Assembly: GCA_017936685.1 (NCBI GenBank)
Contig: JAGBFA010000001.1
Location: forward strand, 148,144-212,143
Source: Alistipes sp.
Lineage (GTDB): Bacteria; Bacteroidota; Bacteroidia; Bacteroidales; Rikenellaceae
Direction: 5' to 3'
DNA length: 64,000 nucleotides
The position numbers were made by a program, and so were the translations under genes. Each line of letters starts with the position of its first letter. Within the stretch, counting starts at the first letter, position 1. Shown here piece after piece: positions 34,560-64,000 of this stretch. Below the pieces are notes generated by a model. It saw only the letters and a list, made by a program, of their open reading frames with translations. It was not told where the DNA came from and did no database searches.

Positions 34560-34867
34560 CCTTGCGTGTCATGTTGAACGAAGTGAAATCTGGTTGGGGT
34601 AAACAGAACCACTCTGTCACTCCGAGAGAGGGCGCATGCCCGACCGTGGGAGTCTCGCGGGTGGGAAAGCGGTGTCGGCGGAAGCCTGTCGACCAAAACA
34701 GAGATTCTCACGTCGCGTACTACGCACGCTCCTCAGAATGACAGACCCTCCCCGTCATGTTGAGCGTTAGCGAAACATCTGGTTGGGGACAATAAGGTTT
34801 ATCGCCCTTGCACATATTCCCCAACCAGATTCTTCACCCCGCGTTGCTCCGTTCAGAATGACAGAGT
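34560..34867. repeat. Family A repeat island 1
   Basis: Part of the 747-base gene-free stretch 34408-35154. It contains a partial A1 unit from 34567 (TGTCATGTTGAACG...CTGGTTGGGG), a complete A2 unit (34614-34744: CTGTCACTCCGAG...CCTCAGAATGACAG) and a complete A1 unit (34753-34864) whose inner arms CTGGTTGGGG / CCCCAACCAG are inverted. The same units recur at 47.0-47.6, 48.77-48.88 and 63.56-63.81 kb. No convincing reading frame. Confidence 0.85.
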
Positions 34868-34897: not shown

Positions 34898-35018
34898 TTT
34901 TTCGTCAAAAGCGGTATTATACCACGCAAACGAAGATCCGCCGGATAGGTTGTACTTGGCGTACTACCTATTCGGCGGAGCAAGTGCGCGGCAGTAGAAT
35001 GCCGCTTTTCACGGAAAA
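34898..35018. repeat. Family B palindromic repeat, copy 1
   Basis: 121 bp from TTTTTCGTC to ACGGAAAA; outer arms AAAGCGGTATT / AATGCCGCTTTT. The central hairpin pairs TCCGCCGGATAGG with CCTATTCGGCGGA (13 bp, one G-T pair) and is topped by GTAC-TTGGC-GTAC. Copy 2 begins 144 bases later. Confidence 0.88.
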
Positions 35019-35041
35019 CCTCCAAAGAACCACCAACCCAA

Positions 35042-35164
35042 TTTTTCGTCAAAAGGCGTTAGTAGCGGTGCCGACATGAAATTGGCACGGATAGGCTGTA
35101 CTCACCGTACTGCCTATTCGCGCCAATGATTGAGGTGCCACTAATGACGCCTTTTCACGAAAAA
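35042..35164. repeat. Family B palindromic repeat, copy 2 (overlaps end of lytTR gene)
   Basis: 123 bp, TTTTTCGTC ... CACGAAAAA. Outer arms GGCGTTAGT / ACTAATGACGCC; central hairpin GGCACGGATAGGC / GCCTATTCGCGCC with apical GTAC-TCACC-GTAC. The right end supplies the last three codons and the TGA stop (35155-35157, minus) of the response-regulator gene. Confidence 0.88.
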
Positions 35165-35916
35165 GACAACCACTGCTTAAACTCCGGCACACGAGCCTTC
35201 GAGATGATGATGCGCTCGGGAGTATCGACCAAGAGATTGAGGGCAAGACGGCTGCCGAACCATACGGCAATATCCTTGACGGCGCGGCGCGAGATGATGA
35301 ATTGACGGTTGGCGCGGAAAAATTCGTCGTCGGCAAGCATGCCTTGCAGGGTCTCCAAAGTCTTATCGACGGGATAGCTGTCGCCCGAAAGGGTAGTGAG
35401 GGATACTTTCTCGGCAAAGGTATAAAAATAGGCTATCTGATCGACGGACACGGGAATGATCTTATCCTTGAATCGCACTAAAATGACACGCGGACGCTCC
35501 GCCTGCGAGGCGACCATCTCGTCGACACGCGCCTTATGTTGAGAGCGGTCGGCAGCCGAGAGCCGCGACAGTTTATCCAAGGCACGTTGCAGATCCTCCT
35601 CCTTGAAGGGTTTGAGCAGATAATCGATGCTGTTGACCTTGAACGCTCGGAGCGCATATTGGTCGTAGGCGGTGGTGAACACGACAGGAGCCTCGATATC
35701 GACACTGTCGAAGATGCGGAACGACTCGCCGTCGGCAAGATGTATATCCATAAACACCAGATCGATACGGCTCTTATCCGTCGTAAAGAACTCGACGCTC
35801 TCCTCGACACTCTCCAACACGGCCACGATCTCGGCATCGGGCACGACATGCTGCAACATGCTGCGCAGGTTGATTGCGGCAGCCGTTTCGTCTTCTATAA
35901 TCAGGATTCTCATCAT
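35155..35916 (-). CDS. LytTR-family response regulator
   Basis: 253 residues. Receiver domain 1-120 with the acidic pocket IIEDE, phospho-acceptor Asp57 in LVFMDIHLADG, and Lys in YLLKPF; LytTR DNA-binding domain about 140-250 (ILVRFKDKIIPVSVDQIAYF, FFRANRQFIISRRAVKDI). Its start overlaps the stop of the histidine-kinase gene (ATGA), so the pair forms one operon. The final residues and stop codon fall inside a family B repeat, so the C-terminal tail may be shorter or altered relative to homologues. Confidence 0.93.
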   Translation of the reverse strand: MMRILIIEDETAAAINLRSMLQHVVPDAEIVAVLESVEESVEFFTTDKSRIDLVFMDIHLADGESFRIFDSVDIEAPVVFTTAYDQYALRAFKVNSIDYLLKPFKEEDLQRALDKLSRLSAADRSQHKARVDEMVASQAERPRVILVRFKDKIIPVSVDQIAYFYTFAEKVSLTTLSGDSYPVDKTLETLQGMLADDEFFRANRQFIISRRAVKDIAVWFGSRLALNLLVDTPERIIISKARVPEFKQWLSFS

Positions 35917-46859: not shown

Positions 46860-47830
46860 CCCAAACCCCTCCCTCGGGAGGGGCTTTTGTCGCGCGATTT
46901 ATCGCGCTCCATGTGGGGCGTGGCGGACTTATCGCCATATTCCGAGGTGGGGCGTGGCAGGCTGCGTCTTGCGTCCCGTGGTGGGGCGTTGGCAGGTGGT
47001 CTGTCATTCTGAACGTAGTGAAGAATCCGGTTATGGCAGAATGGGCATATCGGACTCGCACGTAGTCCCCAACCAGATTCTTCGCTACGCGTTGCTTCGC
47101 TCAGAATGGCAGGACAGTGGAAACAATCACACACAGATTTCTCGCTCGCGCTCGAAATGACACATCGCTGTCACTCCGAGGAGCCGCAGGCGACGTGGGA
47201 GTCTCGCCGGGGGGAGCGTGGTCACCGCACGGGGATTTGTCGCACAAAACAGAGATTCTCACGTCGGACGTTCCGTCCTCCTCAGAATGACAGTCCCGAC
47301 GTGTCATGTTGAACGCAGTGAAACATCTGGTTGGGAAAGATTAGGCTTGTCGTCCATGCACATAGTCCCCAACCGGATTCTTCGCTACGCGTTGCTTCAC
47401 TCAGAATGACAGGACAGTGGAAACAATCACACACAGATTTCTCGCTCGCGCTCGAAATGACACATCGCTGTCACTCCGAGGAGCAACGCAGTTGCGACGT
47501 GGGAGTCTCGCGAACGGGAGCGCACATGCCGACCAAAACAGAGATTCTCGCGTAGCGGCCGACGGCCGCTCCTCAGAATGACAGAGCGGATATGCCTCGC
47601 ACGCACAAATTCCACAACCGGATTCTTGACCTGCGGTCTTCCTCCTTCGCGTCTCGACATAAGAAATAAATTTCTTCTGTTCTCGACTTGGCGTCGGTTC
47701 GTTTCACTCAGAATGACAGGGCAAACAGGCATGTCTCGCACAGATTTCTCGCTTACGCTCGAAATGACATGACGAGCGGTTTTATCGTCCACAACCAAAT
47801 TCTTCGCTATCGCCCAGAATAGCAACAAAT
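46860..47830. repeat. Family A repeat island 2
   Basis: The gene-free stretch 46617-47922 (1306 bases) is mostly repeats. After a GC-rich segment with hairpin CCCCTCCC/GGGAGGGG (46868-46886) come A1 units at 47001-47112 and 47302-47412, A2 units at 47168-47293 and 47468-47584, and short A3 units (ACACAGATTTCTCGCTCGCG) near 47131, 47431 and 47748. A 117-bp block at 47068-47184 recurs at 47368-47484 with only about three differences, an exact 300-bp period. No family B element here. Several short open frames exist but are repeat-derived. Confidence 0.85.
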
Positions 47831-47922
47831 TCGCAATATATTATCGAAAATAAATAAGCGGCAACAAATCATCAAAGATTTGCTGCCGCCTGCAATTTTA
47901 CAGACTACCGTTCGCCGTCATG

Positions 47923-48534
47923 CTATTCTGAGACAGGCCGGACACTATACCCGTAGTTGCGGTATTCCAAATGCATGAGGAGATCGCCGCTATCGTCGCT
48001 GGCGAAGTCGAGGATGCGCGCGTACTGCGTATCGATCTCGAAGGGCGTGGAACTCCAATAACCACCTATCACTCCGGCGTAGTCGAGCGACGATTCGTTG
48101 TACAAACCGGCGGCAGGGAGGAAGATAGAGTTGCCGTTGATTTTACTCGTTACCTCGTAGCCGTTATGTCCGTCCCGACTTGTCCATGTCCATGTACAAT
48201 TATCGACCAATTCTTCCATCTCGGCCTGCGTGGGCATGCGCCACGAACCTCCCCAATTGGCACACGCAGCATCGTATTCAGGATTACCGGCGATATTTTT
48301 CATGTTCTTGTCGAAGGTATTGCTATTTTCCTGCGTGTAATCCGCCTTAGGTGTGATTTCGCCCCATGCGAAATAGTCTCCGTAGTCCGACGGTGACGAT
48401 GCTCCCACATTGCATGTCGCCCACTTGACGCTCAAACCCAAATCAACCGCCTCGTGTTTGACATCGGTTTTGGACGAGCACCCCACGGCGAGCGACACAC
48501 CGGCAATAGTTGCTATTAATGTTGATTTCTTCAT
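47923..48534 (-). CDS. Small FISUMP-like lipoprotein
   Basis: 203 residues; lipobox ending VSLAVGC (Cys19). The mature part is a single FISUMP-type domain: VDLGLSVKWATCNVGASSPSDYGDYFAWGE, NWGGSWRMPTQAEMEELVDNCTWTW, IFLPAAGLY, YWSSTPFE, YGYSVRPV. Similar blocks end the larger lipoprotein at 22747. Surface or periplasmic; function unknown. It is isolated between two repeat islands with no operon partner. Confidence 0.82.
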   Translation of the reverse strand: MKKSTLIATIAGVSLAVGCSSKTDVKHEAVDLGLSVKWATCNVGASSPSDYGDYFAWGEITPKADYTQENSNTFDKNMKNIAGNPEYDAACANWGGSWRMPTQAEMEELVDNCTWTWTSRDGHNGYEVTSKINGNSIFLPAAGLYNESSLDYAGVIGGYWSSTPFEIDTQYARILDFASDDSGDLLMHLEYRNYGYSVRPVSE

Positions 48535-48689
48535 AGTAATGATTTTTATATTTAATTTCTGTTAAACAAAGATATGAAAAAAAATCCCCGCCCCTTCAAA
48601 ATTTTCGAAATAAAAATTCCACAGACACATGATTTTCTATTTTAACGGGCTTATTTCCATGATTCGCGACAGGGCATTTTCTGCATATT

Positions 48690-48893
48690 GTTATTCTTCG
48701 TTTCACTCGGAATGATAGGACAAGCAGGCATGTCTTGCACAGATTTCTCGCTGACGCTCGAAATGACAAACACTGTCACTCCGAGGAGCCAAAGGCGACG
48801 TGGGAGTCTCGCGGACGGGAGCGCACATGCCGACCAAAACAGAGATTCTCACGTCGGACATGCCGTCCTCCTCAGAATGACAGCGTGGTGGAA
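48690..48893. repeat. Family A repeat island 3
   Basis: Within the 507-base gap 48535-49041. Contains an A1 tail (TTTCACTCGGAATGATAGGACA), an A3 unit near 48738 and a complete A2 unit at 48773-48883 (CTGTCACTCCGAGGAG ... CTCAGAATGACAG). The preceding 150 bases (48535-48690) are AT-rich and featureless. A family B element follows directly. Confidence 0.82.
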
Positions 48894-48919: not shown

Positions 48920-49041
48920 TTTTTCGTAAAAAGCGGTTAGTTGCAACGCGCAACGAAAATTGGGCGGACGGGCTGTACTTGTCGTACTGCCCGTTCACCC
49001 AATTGAGCAAGCGGAAGCAAATGACCGCTTTTCACGAAAAA
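48920..49041. repeat. Family B palindromic repeat, copy 3
   Basis: 122 bp, TTTTTCGT ... CACGAAAAA. Outer arms GCGGTTAGTTGC / GCAAATGACCGC; central hairpin ATTGGGCGGACGGGC / GCCCGTTCACCCAAT with apical GTAC-TTGTC-GTAC. Its right end touches the TAA stop codon (49042-49044, minus) of the sulfatase gene. Confidence 0.88.
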
Positions 49042-50583
49042 TTACATAGGGATTGACATCTTAAACATAGGATTCTCCGGCTCGGTGTGAGACTCACGGA
49101 TAAACTTCCACATCTTGGCCACTATCTCGGGGTGCTCGGCAGCAAGGTCGTGCTCCTCATGCAGATCGGTAGAGATGTCGAAAAGCTCCATCTTGGTGTT
49201 GCCCTCCTTGACATTGCGCAGCAAGCCCTTCCAGTTGCCGTAACGGACAGCGACCCAGCCCTTGCCGCCGGGGAACTCCCAGTAGAGGAACTCGTGCTGC
49301 TTCTGGCGTTTCTCCTTACCCATGATGGTGGGCAGCAACGAGATACCGTCGGTCTGAGGCGTTTTGACACCGGCAATATCGCACAGCGTAGGCATCACAT
49401 CGGGGAAGAAGCCGACGTGCTCGCATACCTGCGGCGTGAGACGATCGCCCCATGTCACGATAAACGGCATGCGGATACCGCCCTCGCGCAACGATGCTTT
49501 GCCCCAGCCCTTGCCGCTGCGGAACGGCGCGGCACTCTGGAACCACTCGGTCGACGAGCACGAGTTGGCCGCCGGACCGTTGTCGCTGGTGATGAAGATG
49601 ATGGTGTTGTCCCACAAGCCCAGACGCTTAAGCTCCTCCACAAGACCGCCGATCTGCTTGTCGATATGCGAGATCATGGCAGCATAAGTGGCATGAGGCC
49701 AACGCGAGGGGAAATAGCCCTTGCCCTCGATGGGATCCTCGTCGCCGAACTTGCGGACATAGTATTGCACCTCGTCGCCCGGGGCCTGCATGGGGCTGTG
49801 GGGGATAGGAGTGGTCCACATCAGGAAGAAGGGATTTTCCCGATTGTCGTTAACAAACTCCAAAACTCGTTCATACATCAGATCGGGGCTGTAAGTATTC
49901 TGAGTATATTTGTCATAGCTGGCCGGATCGTATGGGTCGGCACCCTCGTCGATCGGCGTGCCGGGAGGCAGCAGCTGATTGTCGAGATAGACGCGATGAT
50001 CGTTTTCCCAAAGGAAAGGAGGGTAGTAGCAGTGAGCCTGACGCTGGCAGATGCAGCCGAAATAGTATTCGAATCCCATCTTGTTGGGCGTGCTCTCGCT
50101 GCCGGGACTGCCGACGCCCCACTTGCCGATCATGGCAGTGCGGTATCCTGCACGTTTCATCTCGCTGCCGAGCGTCGGCGTGCCGGCGCGCATGGGAGCC
50201 TGACCTTCGAGGGTGGAGTCGCGCAGCATCTCGGCATGGTTCCACACGTCGCCGCGCCACGTCATCTCGTCGTTGGCACGGATCTGCGCATGTCCCGAGT
50301 GCATGCCCGTCAGCAGGCCGCAGCGGGCCGGCGACGACAGGGGAGCAGCCGAATACATGTCGGTGAAGCGCAGACCGCGGGCAGCCAGCGCATCGATGTT
50401 GGGCGTCTCCGTGCGACTCTGGCCGTAACAGCCGAAATCGCCGTAGCCGGCATCGTCCAACAGAATGAAAATAACGTTCGGTTTCTCGGGTTTTGCAGCC
50501 ATGGCTTCGCTGCCCGGCACTAACGACAGGGCCGGAGCGGCAGCTGCACCCAAGAAGAGGGCTTTACTTAGCGAATGGTTCAT
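49042..50583 (-). CDS. Sulfatase, family S1, Ser-type
   Basis: 513 residues, alkaline-phosphatase-superfamily sulfatase. Exported (N-terminal hydrophobic stretch, cleavage near AMAA). Metal Asp43-Asp44 in LLDDAGYGDFG; the formylglycine motif is S83-S-P-A-R87 (LSSPARCGLLTG), i.e. the Ser form that needs the anaerobic maturase found 2.4 kb away; Lys/His residues in MIGKWGVG and TPIPHSPM; the second metal pair in FITSDNGPA. Likely desulfates mucin or glycosaminoglycan sugars in the periplasm. The substrate subfamily cannot be assigned. Its stop codon abuts a family B repeat. Confidence 0.93.
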   Translation of the reverse strand: MNHSLSKALFLGAAAAPALSLVPGSEAMAAKPEKPNVIFILLDDAGYGDFGCYGQSRTETPNIDALAARGLRFTDMYSAAPLSSPARCGLLTGMHSGHAQIRANDEMTWRGDVWNHAEMLRDSTLEGQAPMRAGTPTLGSEMKRAGYRTAMIGKWGVGSPGSESTPNKMGFEYYFGCICQRQAHCYYPPFLWENDHRVYLDNQLLPPGTPIDEGADPYDPASYDKYTQNTYSPDLMYERVLEFVNDNRENPFFLMWTTPIPHSPMQAPGDEVQYYVRKFGDEDPIEGKGYFPSRWPHATYAAMISHIDKQIGGLVEELKRLGLWDNTIIFITSDNGPAANSCSSTEWFQSAAPFRSGKGWGKASLREGGIRMPFIVTWGDRLTPQVCEHVGFFPDVMPTLCDIAGVKTPQTDGISLLPTIMGKEKRQKQHEFLYWEFPGGKGWVAVRYGNWKGLLRNVKEGNTKMELFDISTDLHEEHDLAAEHPEIVAKMWKFIRESHTEPENPMFKMSIPM

Positions 50584-63559: not shown

Positions 63560-63808
63560 TGTCACTCCGAGGGAGAGCGCAGCCCGACTGTGGGAGTCTC
63601 GCGGGCGGAAGCGCGATTCGGCGTGCAGCAGCTTGTCGACCAAAAGAGATTCTCACGTCGCGGCGGTTTGCCGCTCCTCAGAATGACAGGACAGAGGTGT
63701 CATGTTGAGCGGAGCGAAACATCTGGTTGGGGAAGACAAGACATATCGTCCTCGCACATCGTCCCCAACCGGATTCTTCGTTACACTACGTTTCACTCAG
63801 AATGACAG
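63560..63808. repeat. Family A repeat island 4
   Basis: A complete A2 unit at 63560-63689 (TGTCACTCCGAGGG ... CTCCTCAGAATGACAG) followed by a complete A1 unit at 63698-63808 (TGTCATGTTGAGCGG ... TCAGAATGACAG) with inner arms ATCTGGTTGGGG and CCCCAACCGGAT. Same order (A2 then A1) as island 1. Confidence 0.85.
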
Positions 63809-63844: not shown

Positions 63845-63966
63845 TTTTTCGTCAAAAGTGGTTAGTTGCAACGCGCAACGAAAATTGGGCGGACGGGCTG
63901 TACTAATCGTACTGCCCGTTCGCCCAATCGAGCGAGCGGCCGCAAATGACCGCTTTTCACGGAAAA
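63845..63966. repeat. Family B palindromic repeat, copy 4
   Basis: 122 bp, TTTTTCGTC ... CACGGAAAA. Outer arms GTGGTTAGTTGC / GCAAATGACCGC; the central hairpin ATTGGGCGGACGGGC / GCCCGTTCGCCCAAT is fully paired apart from one G-T pair; apical GTAC-TAATC-GTAC. Nearly identical to copy 3. Confidence 0.9.
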
Positions 63967-63989: not shown

Positions 63990-64000
63990 TTTTTCGTCAA
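63990..64000. repeat. Start of a further family B repeat, cut by the window
   Basis: TTTTTCGTCAA, the family B left end, begins 145 bases after the left end of copy 4, preceded by the same linker (CACCACCAACC) that separates copies 1 and 2. A tandem array therefore continues beyond the window. Confidence 0.8.

Follow-up and report, generated by a model that had tools for sequence, protein, structure and literature searches.

Family B copies in the window

The stretch of Alistipes sp. DNA analysed here (64,000 nucleotides, referred to below as the window) contains several copies of a long palindromic repeat, family B, whose two arms change together from copy to copy, and the question is what kind of element keeps its fold in this way. 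Copy 1 (34898..35018) is a 121-bp hairpin with the apex GTACTTGGCGTAC at 34952-34964 and a score of 132.3 bits, and it stands in tandem with copy 2 (35042..35164; 123 bp, apex 35098-35110, 106.9 bits) across a 23-nt linker (35019..35041, + strand) of a kind that recurs between other tandem copies of the source genome. Copy 2 overlaps the 3' end of the frame of a minus-strand response regulator gene (Response_reg + LytTR, 35155..35916), which stops at a TGA inside the copy at an offset of -10. Copy 3 (48920..49041; 122 bp, apex 48975-48987, 122.1 bits) is followed directly on its 3' side by TTA, the TAA stop of a minus-strand sulfatase gene (49042..50583) that abuts the copy with a gap of 0. 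Copy 4 (63845..63966; 122 bp, apex 63900-63912, 125.3 bits) has its 3' neighbour gene beyond the contig end, which coincides with the end of the window (contig C12 of the 2.28 Mb source assembly) and cuts a fifth copy after its first 11 bases (63990..64000, + strand). Copies 1-4 all lie on the + strand and are imperfect palindromes of 121-123 bp.

Rereading of the sequence bore out the initial annotation for the positions of the four full copies and of the start of the fifth at 63990, for the arm pairs and outer arms, and for the apical GTAC-T-NNN-C-GTAC, the fixed G.T pair and the end sequences. The T-T mismatch below the apex, which had been counted in three copies, is present in 4/4. When both strands were tested against dinucleotide shuffles, each of the four copies folded as one long hairpin, with z-scores of -7.7 to -9.3 as RNA and -5.1 to -8.1 as DNA. 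No window copy matched Rfam 15 at the gathering threshold, and a laxer scan of the loci of five relatives returned only four weak microRNA-family matches, far under their cut-offs. One of these (L046, E 0.013, 30 bits vs a cut-off of 230) overlies a family B copy and is taken as chance. A known Rfam family was rejected, as neither the window copies at the gathering score nor the five relatives' loci gave a true match.

Copies in the source genome

A DNA search of the source genome returned 70 matching pieces. Thirty source-genome loci and the window held 66 candidates, from which one false match (C8:149218) was dropped, leaving 65 genuine copies, 63 of them distinct. Units are 120-124 bp long in the source genome and about 107-127 nt family-wide, and many of the source-genome copies form tandem arrays joined by short linkers. 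The covariance model trained on this set matched every candidate that was scored (150/150, E <= 6.4e-19, all >= 95 bits; one match is cut by a contig end). The wrong-strand readings of source copies that we saw score at most 73.5 bits, and the 150 matches are therefore taken as separate places. With 150 of 1100 first-look candidates scored, family B occupies at least 150 places in the 2.28 Mb source genome, a MAG of 88.8% completeness. Its length and structure suggest that family B is non-coding.

Covariation of the arms

Between species the arms differ almost completely in sequence while their pairing is kept. In an alignment of 119 copies (A3), which was drawn from 81 sources picked by hand and fitted to the structure and so leans towards it, 95.9% of cells are paired, as compared to 74.8% in shuffled alignments, and 33/39 modelled pairs have members that changed on either side. 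For the 119 rows the covariation score is 0.553, against 0.163 when shuffled and at most 0.079 when the partners are slid. Three of the 119 rows are on the wrong strand; they were kept for covariation and removed for the strand and crossover tests (116 rows). Collecting the copies with a covariance model, the check proposed in the initial annotation, thus supported its view that the repeats are a structured family whose folded single strand is under selection, the covariation being far above both the shuffled and the slid controls.

The constant parts are the apex RTAC-T-NNN-C-GTAY, whose conservation is inflated by the choice of the relatives' A3 loci with the apex pattern, a mismatch just below the apex, and one G.T pair kept in 113/119 aligned rows and 62/63 source-genome copies. 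The source-genome set (A1) and the loci of the first-model genus scan were chosen without the apex pattern; 120 apex-pattern stretches, including L131-L170, were used in the gene-end, strand and terminator analyses. The loop triplet enclosed by T and C is highly variable, even among near-identical copies (e.g. TGG, CGA, CAC, AAT, GAT), and across species it shows a T/A bias at its first position and a G bias at its third.

Strand bias of the fold

The mismatches tolerated in the stem differ sharply between the strands. On the + strand of 116 copies we counted 366 G.T cells vs 30 A.C cells and 118 G.A cells vs 4 C.T cells, 82 of the G.A cells coming from one internal-loop column. The source genome alone gave G.T 186 vs A.C 18, and 62 vs 18 when the three most wobble-rich pairs were removed. 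Fold energies, a comparison independent of the model-based alignment and its lean towards the modelled strand, agree: the + strand folds better in 113/116 copies, with a median gain of 15.9 kcal/mol, and in 59/63 source-genome copies. Because a double-stranded role would give equal numbers of G.T and A.C, the large excess of G.T argues for selection on one single strand. Plain duplication with neutral drift, the contrary explanation named in the initial annotation, does not predict so strong a bias of mismatch types in double-stranded DNA. The better-folding + strand is the template strand of the gene that the copy follows, which speaks against a hairpin kept as part of the mRNA of that gene. 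Counting G.T against A.C mismatches offers an easy way to tell which strand is under selection.

Position behind stop codons

Family B copies are found predominantly behind genes. Among array-terminal copies of the source genome, 36/37 have the stop of an opposite-strand ORF at -10 to +98 nt from the 3' end of the copy, and 66/72 array-terminal copies of relatives have a convergent ORF stop at -10 to +126 nt; for the relatives' copies chosen without the apex pattern, the stop lies at -10 to +21 nt in 18/19. Seen from the genes, a sense-oriented apex follows 154/1026 mechanically called ORFs (some of them duplicated between overlapping loci) with a sharp peak at 54 nt, and the opposite orientation alone follows 26/1026, scattered. 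The gap to the stop is 0 in 83/141 non-redundant cases, with 15 lacking a measurable gap. TAA stops are enriched at copies (111/141 vs 341/615; odds ratio 3, p 2e-7); simple targeting of TAA is insufficient as an explanation, since a gap of 0 is also seen at TAG (5/17) and TGA (6/13). The C-termini encoded beside copies, for example those of GroEL, DnaK and GAPDH, look native when read by eye, which suggests that the proteins before copies are generally not truncated. Ten copies from copy-poor genomes of the genus are placed less uniformly: the stop is within 1-4 nt in three, the nearest stop is 176 and 384 nt off in two, and for five no convergent ORF could be read in the 83-555 nt of sequence at hand. 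The stop at 384 nt is that nearest to a copy at GroEL in a sparse genome and belongs to another gene.

Many copies, though not all, have a tail of about 13 nt, TTGGGTNGTGSTG, 3' of the hairpin in the sense of the gene (e.g. L051, L062 and L069); the tail is absent at the L243/L244 site. The copies at L211 (G070) and L213 (G079) are both followed by TTACTTRCCCATA, readable in each case as the last codons of one and the same gene (..MGK*). At L211 the open frame with the ..MGK* ending lies another 176 nt away, suggestive of a duplicated or broken gene end.

The place behind the stop is also that of the transcription terminator. A simple custom finder located ordinary stem-plus-T-run terminators at 54/280 copy-free transcription-unit ends (2/280 when shuffled) and after 6/100 family B copies (1/100 when shuffled). 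Inside the elements, a GC hairpin with a T-run on the strand of the gene was found in 0/114 by a simple custom finder, and a canonical intrinsic terminator was rejected on this count. Orthologues of element-bearing genes carry the element in 58/118 ordered pairs, as compared to 60/337 for other genes, and 58/118 is too low because some of the 60 partners scored as element-free show a variant element that the apex pattern missed. The terminator and orthologue counts fit either insertion into the terminator slot or use of the element as a 3' end. With 55 convergent and 53 co-directional neighbours at element gene ends, an antisense terminator serving convergent neighbours was rejected as well.

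Distribution of family B

The first covariance model found matches in 20/36 further genomes of the genus (MAGs submitted under Alistipes sp. or Rikenellaceae) and in 0/24 genomes of other families, with 59 candidates scored in each. A broader model matched in 41/61 genus genomes, ranging from 0 to all 58 candidates scored; these figures are matches rather than copies, as both strands of one copy may count. Three 99%-complete genomes (G019, G023 and G084) gave no match with the broader model. In an order-wide sample with 18 candidates scored per genome, matches occurred in the source genome and in 1/197 others. All these scans scored the best candidates only (150, 59, 58 or 18 each), and the lack of a match is accordingly not proof of absence. 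The one other genome, G202 from another family, has four weak matches (E 4e-6 to 8e-5) with the same architecture, and the two of its sites with enough room have convergent ORF stops at offsets of -1 and 3.

A search for the exact apex pattern gave at least 120 stretches, of which the 80 listed are all from records of Alistipes sp. or Rikenellaceae bacterium and, judged by the record titles, mostly from herbivore hindgut MAGs; this is not a census. The exact pattern occurred in 0 viral contigs, window copies 1-2 had no match in the plasmid collection, and a search of open-licence papers found no description of family B.

Gain of sites and exchange of inner hairpins

We traced one spacer by its flanking genes, the query matching in 108/121 genomes, and fetched 30 loci, 28 of which were readable. 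Two sister species alone have a family B copy in the spacer, placed 4-5 nt after the stop; in the other 26 loci it measures 25-118 nt in 20 and is longer in 6. A new slot was thus gained in one lineage.

The sister species G021 and G270 have copies in both genomes at 21 orthologous slots, drawn from 55 distinct G021 and 44 distinct G270 copy loci, slots lost in one species being uncounted. The inner part of the hairpin is the same in 5 of these slots (identity >= 0.85), different in 14 (< 0.72) and intermediate in 2, the choice of the partner copy being partly arbitrary where one side is a tandem array (L297, L310 and L315). Five slots have one aligned flank only (L303/L294, L310b/L284c, L315/L347, L332/L363 and L335/L368), and a hand recount of the remaining 16 alone gave 4 same, 11 different and 1 intermediate. 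Wherever the inner hairpin differs (14/21), both arms have been replaced. The outer 18 nt are more alike at orthologous slots (identity 0.83) than between non-orthologous copies (0.745; permutation p 4e-4), and L303/L294 and L321/L352 combine identical or nearly identical, uncommon outer ends with unrelated inner hairpins. At 4/21 slots the outer ends are dissimilar as well (identity <= 0.61); replacement of the entire copy or independent insertion therefore occurs too.

Changes on a smaller scale were seen at two pairs of loci. At L313/L299 a mid-stem of 4-5 bp has changed in both arms, with the inner and outer parts largely unchanged, and at L038/L296 one outer pair has gone from C:G to T:A on both sides and another stretch has lost pairing. 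The initial annotation had read the joint changes of the arms as compensatory. One compensated pair is indeed seen at L038/L296, but the joint arm changes among the window copies look mostly like whole hairpin modules exchanged as units and less like compensation pair by pair, in line with the 14/21 slots above. Arms changing together between repeats can therefore stem from cassette exchange.

Hybrids with mispaired halves are rare, the lowest paired fractions among 63 copies being 0.77 and 0.87. A few copies fold weakly (-38.8 to -44.0 in three), and random crossovers at the apex give a median fold of -40.3 vs the -62.6 kcal/mol observed. In two source-genome copies, at L012 (near 1480-1540) and L010 (minus strand, near the apex at 1771), one short, unrelated sequence (..CTTTGCCGCGGCGAGAAAAAGTGCATG..) replaces or interrupts the 5' arm, which looks like the insertion of another small element at a shared module border.

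Search for a mobilising enzyme

The Y1-type transposase acting from elsewhere that the initial annotation had suggested did not emerge from the search for it: PF01797 was over its cut-off in 0/61 genus genomes, with two weak sub-cut-off matches, and gave no match in the source genome at E <= 1, with 10/14 control genomes positive. A reverse transcriptase (RVT_1) was found in 21/61 genus genomes and was not found in many copy-rich ones, e.g. G017, G021, G062, G068, G075, G080 and G083 (MAGs 80-94% complete), and it was rejected as the common factor because its presence does not track the copies. For the integron integrase, TIGR02249 was over cut-off in 0/61 genus genomes and in no control genome either, the sub-cut-off matches in 61/61 genus genomes and 14/14 controls being taken to be general tyrosine recombinases; the integrase was rejected on the 0/61, without a positive control.

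No transposase or partner gene was noticed among the ORFs read by eye beside copies in sparse genomes, and no full-length transposon with the same ends was noticed in the fetched loci or beside those copies. Reading of 138 copy flanks and of one filled/empty site by eye recognised no consistent target-site duplication. The alternative of a MITE-like repeat, also raised in the initial annotation, may still apply, with presence and absence shown at one site but no target duplication recognised by eye and no transposase found.

A proposed mobile hairpin cassette and its rivals

Family B copies are strand-specific, covarying hairpins that stand mostly at stop codons, include a gained site and carry differing inner hairpins at shared slots. 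The explanation we favour, giving it slightly less than an even chance, is that they make up an extensive family of mobile, non-autonomous hairpin cassettes with a putative single-stranded intermediate and an enzyme that would act in trans. The moving unit would be a single + strand of DNA or RNA, predicted to be recognised by that enzyme at the apex RTAC-T-NNN-C-GTAY, the mismatch below it and the fixed G.T pair. We propose that only folding copies can be mobilised, in which case the fold would be kept despite turnover of almost all bases outside the apex. An incoming strand may also anneal to the outer arms of a resident copy and take the place of its inner part, which would account for old outer stems that enclose new inner hairpins. 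Mobility is supported by the patchy presence in the genus (41/61) and by the copy in one spacer of two sister species only; counting against this explanation are the enzyme searches that gave no candidate, the target duplication that was not recognised by eye, the looser placement in copy-poor genomes, the 4/21 slots with dissimilar outer ends and the insufficiency of simple TAA targeting, and copies replace ordinary terminators, which also suits a host function. More doubtful, and put forward tentatively, is the fuller proposal that family B is a new kind of bacterial mobile hairpin that would insert right behind stop codons, exchange whole inner hairpins at fixed slots via a + single strand and use an enzyme outside the Y1, integron-integrase and reverse-transcriptase classes, with slots that outlast their cassettes.

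The main rival, which we consider unlikely, is a host 3'-end element, its hairpin defining, terminating or protecting the 3' end of the mRNA of the upstream gene and being kept for that use. Copies do occupy the terminator slot directly behind stop codons, ordinary terminators are present at 54/280 copy-free ends and only 6/100 ends after copies, and orthologous gene ends share the element above expectation (58/118 vs 60/337). However, this rival is weakened by the strand bias, the sense (mRNA) strand folding poorly with A.C where the other strand has G.T, as well as by the 0/114 elements with an internal T-run terminator and by the patchiness in the genus, where the 99%-complete G019, G023 and G084 are without a match. 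The same bias bears on the notion of neutral double-stranded palindromes (MITE relics) whose arms would agree since whole units are copied; ordinary gene conversion or ectopic recombination, perhaps triggered where palindromes break, would spread and homogenise them. A symmetric process in double-stranded DNA cannot yield G.T 366 vs A.C 30; mispaired hybrids are rare, pairing holds while the arms diverge almost completely between species, and the mid-stem of 4-5 bp at L313/L299 changed in both arms. Such copying would fit the wholesale exchange of inner cassettes with outer ends more alike than chance, the near-identical copies at unrelated genes and a recombinant with mispaired halves (L029:1363-1485), and we regard it as already disfavoured and quite improbable.

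Ranking next, and improbable too, is an RNA-intermediate (SINE-like) element in which + strand RNA would be copied back into DNA at gene ends. It would account for the RNA-type strand bias with its G.U wobbles and recurrent G.A mismatches and for the enrichment of TAA at the junction beside the element's 3' end; against it, RVT_1 is in 21/61 genomes and not found in many copy-rich ones, and no conserved region past the ~13-nt tail is apparent by eye to hold a promoter. Integron attC sites are the least probable reading and are disfavoured. Their geometry does match, with a position behind the stop codon and folding of the strand opposite to the gene, whereas the outer ends of family B covary without a fixed core, and TIGR02249 is over cut-off in 0/61 genomes, no control being positive either. 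Scarcely more credible are REP/REPIN elements mobilised by a RAYT (Y1) transposase, a reading effectively refuted for the genus, barring an unrecognised Y1 homologue, by PF01797 (over cut-off in 0/61 genomes, none in the source genome at E <= 1, 10/14 controls positive) and at odds with units that are 3-4 times longer than REPs and have no unpaired GTAG tag. What recommends it is the likeness to REPs as these reports describe them, namely strand-specific, high-copy, intergenic stem-mismatch hairpins downstream of genes (PMC3733652, PMC8266576).

Relation to known repeats

REP/REPIN elements with their RAYT (TnpA-REP) are described as high-copy intergenic palindromes whose folded single-stranded DNA is recognised via mismatches and the loop, and which often lie near gene 3' ends, some even supplying the stop codon (PMC3733652, PMC8266576). 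Family B shares with them the strand-specific folded form (G.T 366 vs A.C 30), binding being only predicted. It differs in that nearly all of its arm sequence is variable with pairing kept, and in its ~122 bp, the lack of such a tag and the absence of a Y1 match over cut-off in 61 genomes, where REPs are described with 20-40 bp, an unpaired GTAG tag and a Y1 transposase. CGTC-tagged REPs have been reported in Bacteroidetes too, without a dedicated transposase (PMC3733652), and source-genome copies start with TTTTTCGTC followed by an A/T-rich stem start, resembling the CGTC tag. The stems of CGTC REPs measure 8-9 bp and their tag is unpaired; the family B stem has 39 modelled pairs, and its CGT, unlike theirs, is paired, covaries and varies between copies (TTGTC, GCGTC, TGATTAG).

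ERIC (RU-1), a 127-bp dispersed enterobacterial repeat, and YPAL (~167 bp) form stable stem-loops, and no protein of their own was originally reported (PMC2759123). That account gives them a terminal TA and a TA target duplication, none of which was recognised by eye in family B, and its description of ERIC/YPAL does not include the strand-asymmetric fold or the strict one-orientation anchoring at stop codons (PMC2759123). With ERIC-like MITEs family B shares its shortness, terminal inverted repeats, multiple copies and mobility, the last at one lineage-gained site. We know of no dedicated transposase for ERIC.

Integron attC sites are likewise located after stop codons, fold on the strand opposite to the gene and depend more on structure than on sequence. 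Family B differs from them in having no integron integrase over cut-off in 61 genomes, no conserved R' core and an outermost stem that covaries, and the copies observed follow ordinary genes at dispersed places. With REP-like elements, which lie near gene ends and are bound as folded single strands (PMC3733652, PMC8266576), and ERIC on record, the general kind to which family B belongs is, as far as these descriptions go, already known; the combination of features and the absence of a Y1 enzyme make what is new in it. The genus amounts to a natural experiment, with copy-rich species and species in which none was detected, a strand-specific likely substrate, and sister species with different hairpins in the same slot, which makes it feasible to look for the enzyme by gene association and to test binding directly.

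Other repeats beside family B

Other palindromic repeats adjoin family B in the window at 34700-34860, 47000-48880 and 63640-63800, with the motifs GTCATTCTGA / TCAGAATGAC, GTCATGTTGAG and AGATTCTY, and at several source-genome loci they come after family B, on its gene-distal side; these intergenic regions are thus mosaics of two kinds of repeat. The window also contains a match to Rfam 5_ureB_sRNA (RF02514) at 1841-2135 (67.8 bits vs a cut-off of 40), which overlaps a long minus-strand ORF (571-2289). Several of the 6 longer spacers among the traced loci contain unrelated repeats when read by eye. In the gene A-pepT spacer of L245, L253, L260, L263 and L266 these are species-specific, e.g. 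AAGGTCTTAAGG-type units, and as they occur in the same spacer, slots of this kind seem to be shared by several repeat families in the genus.
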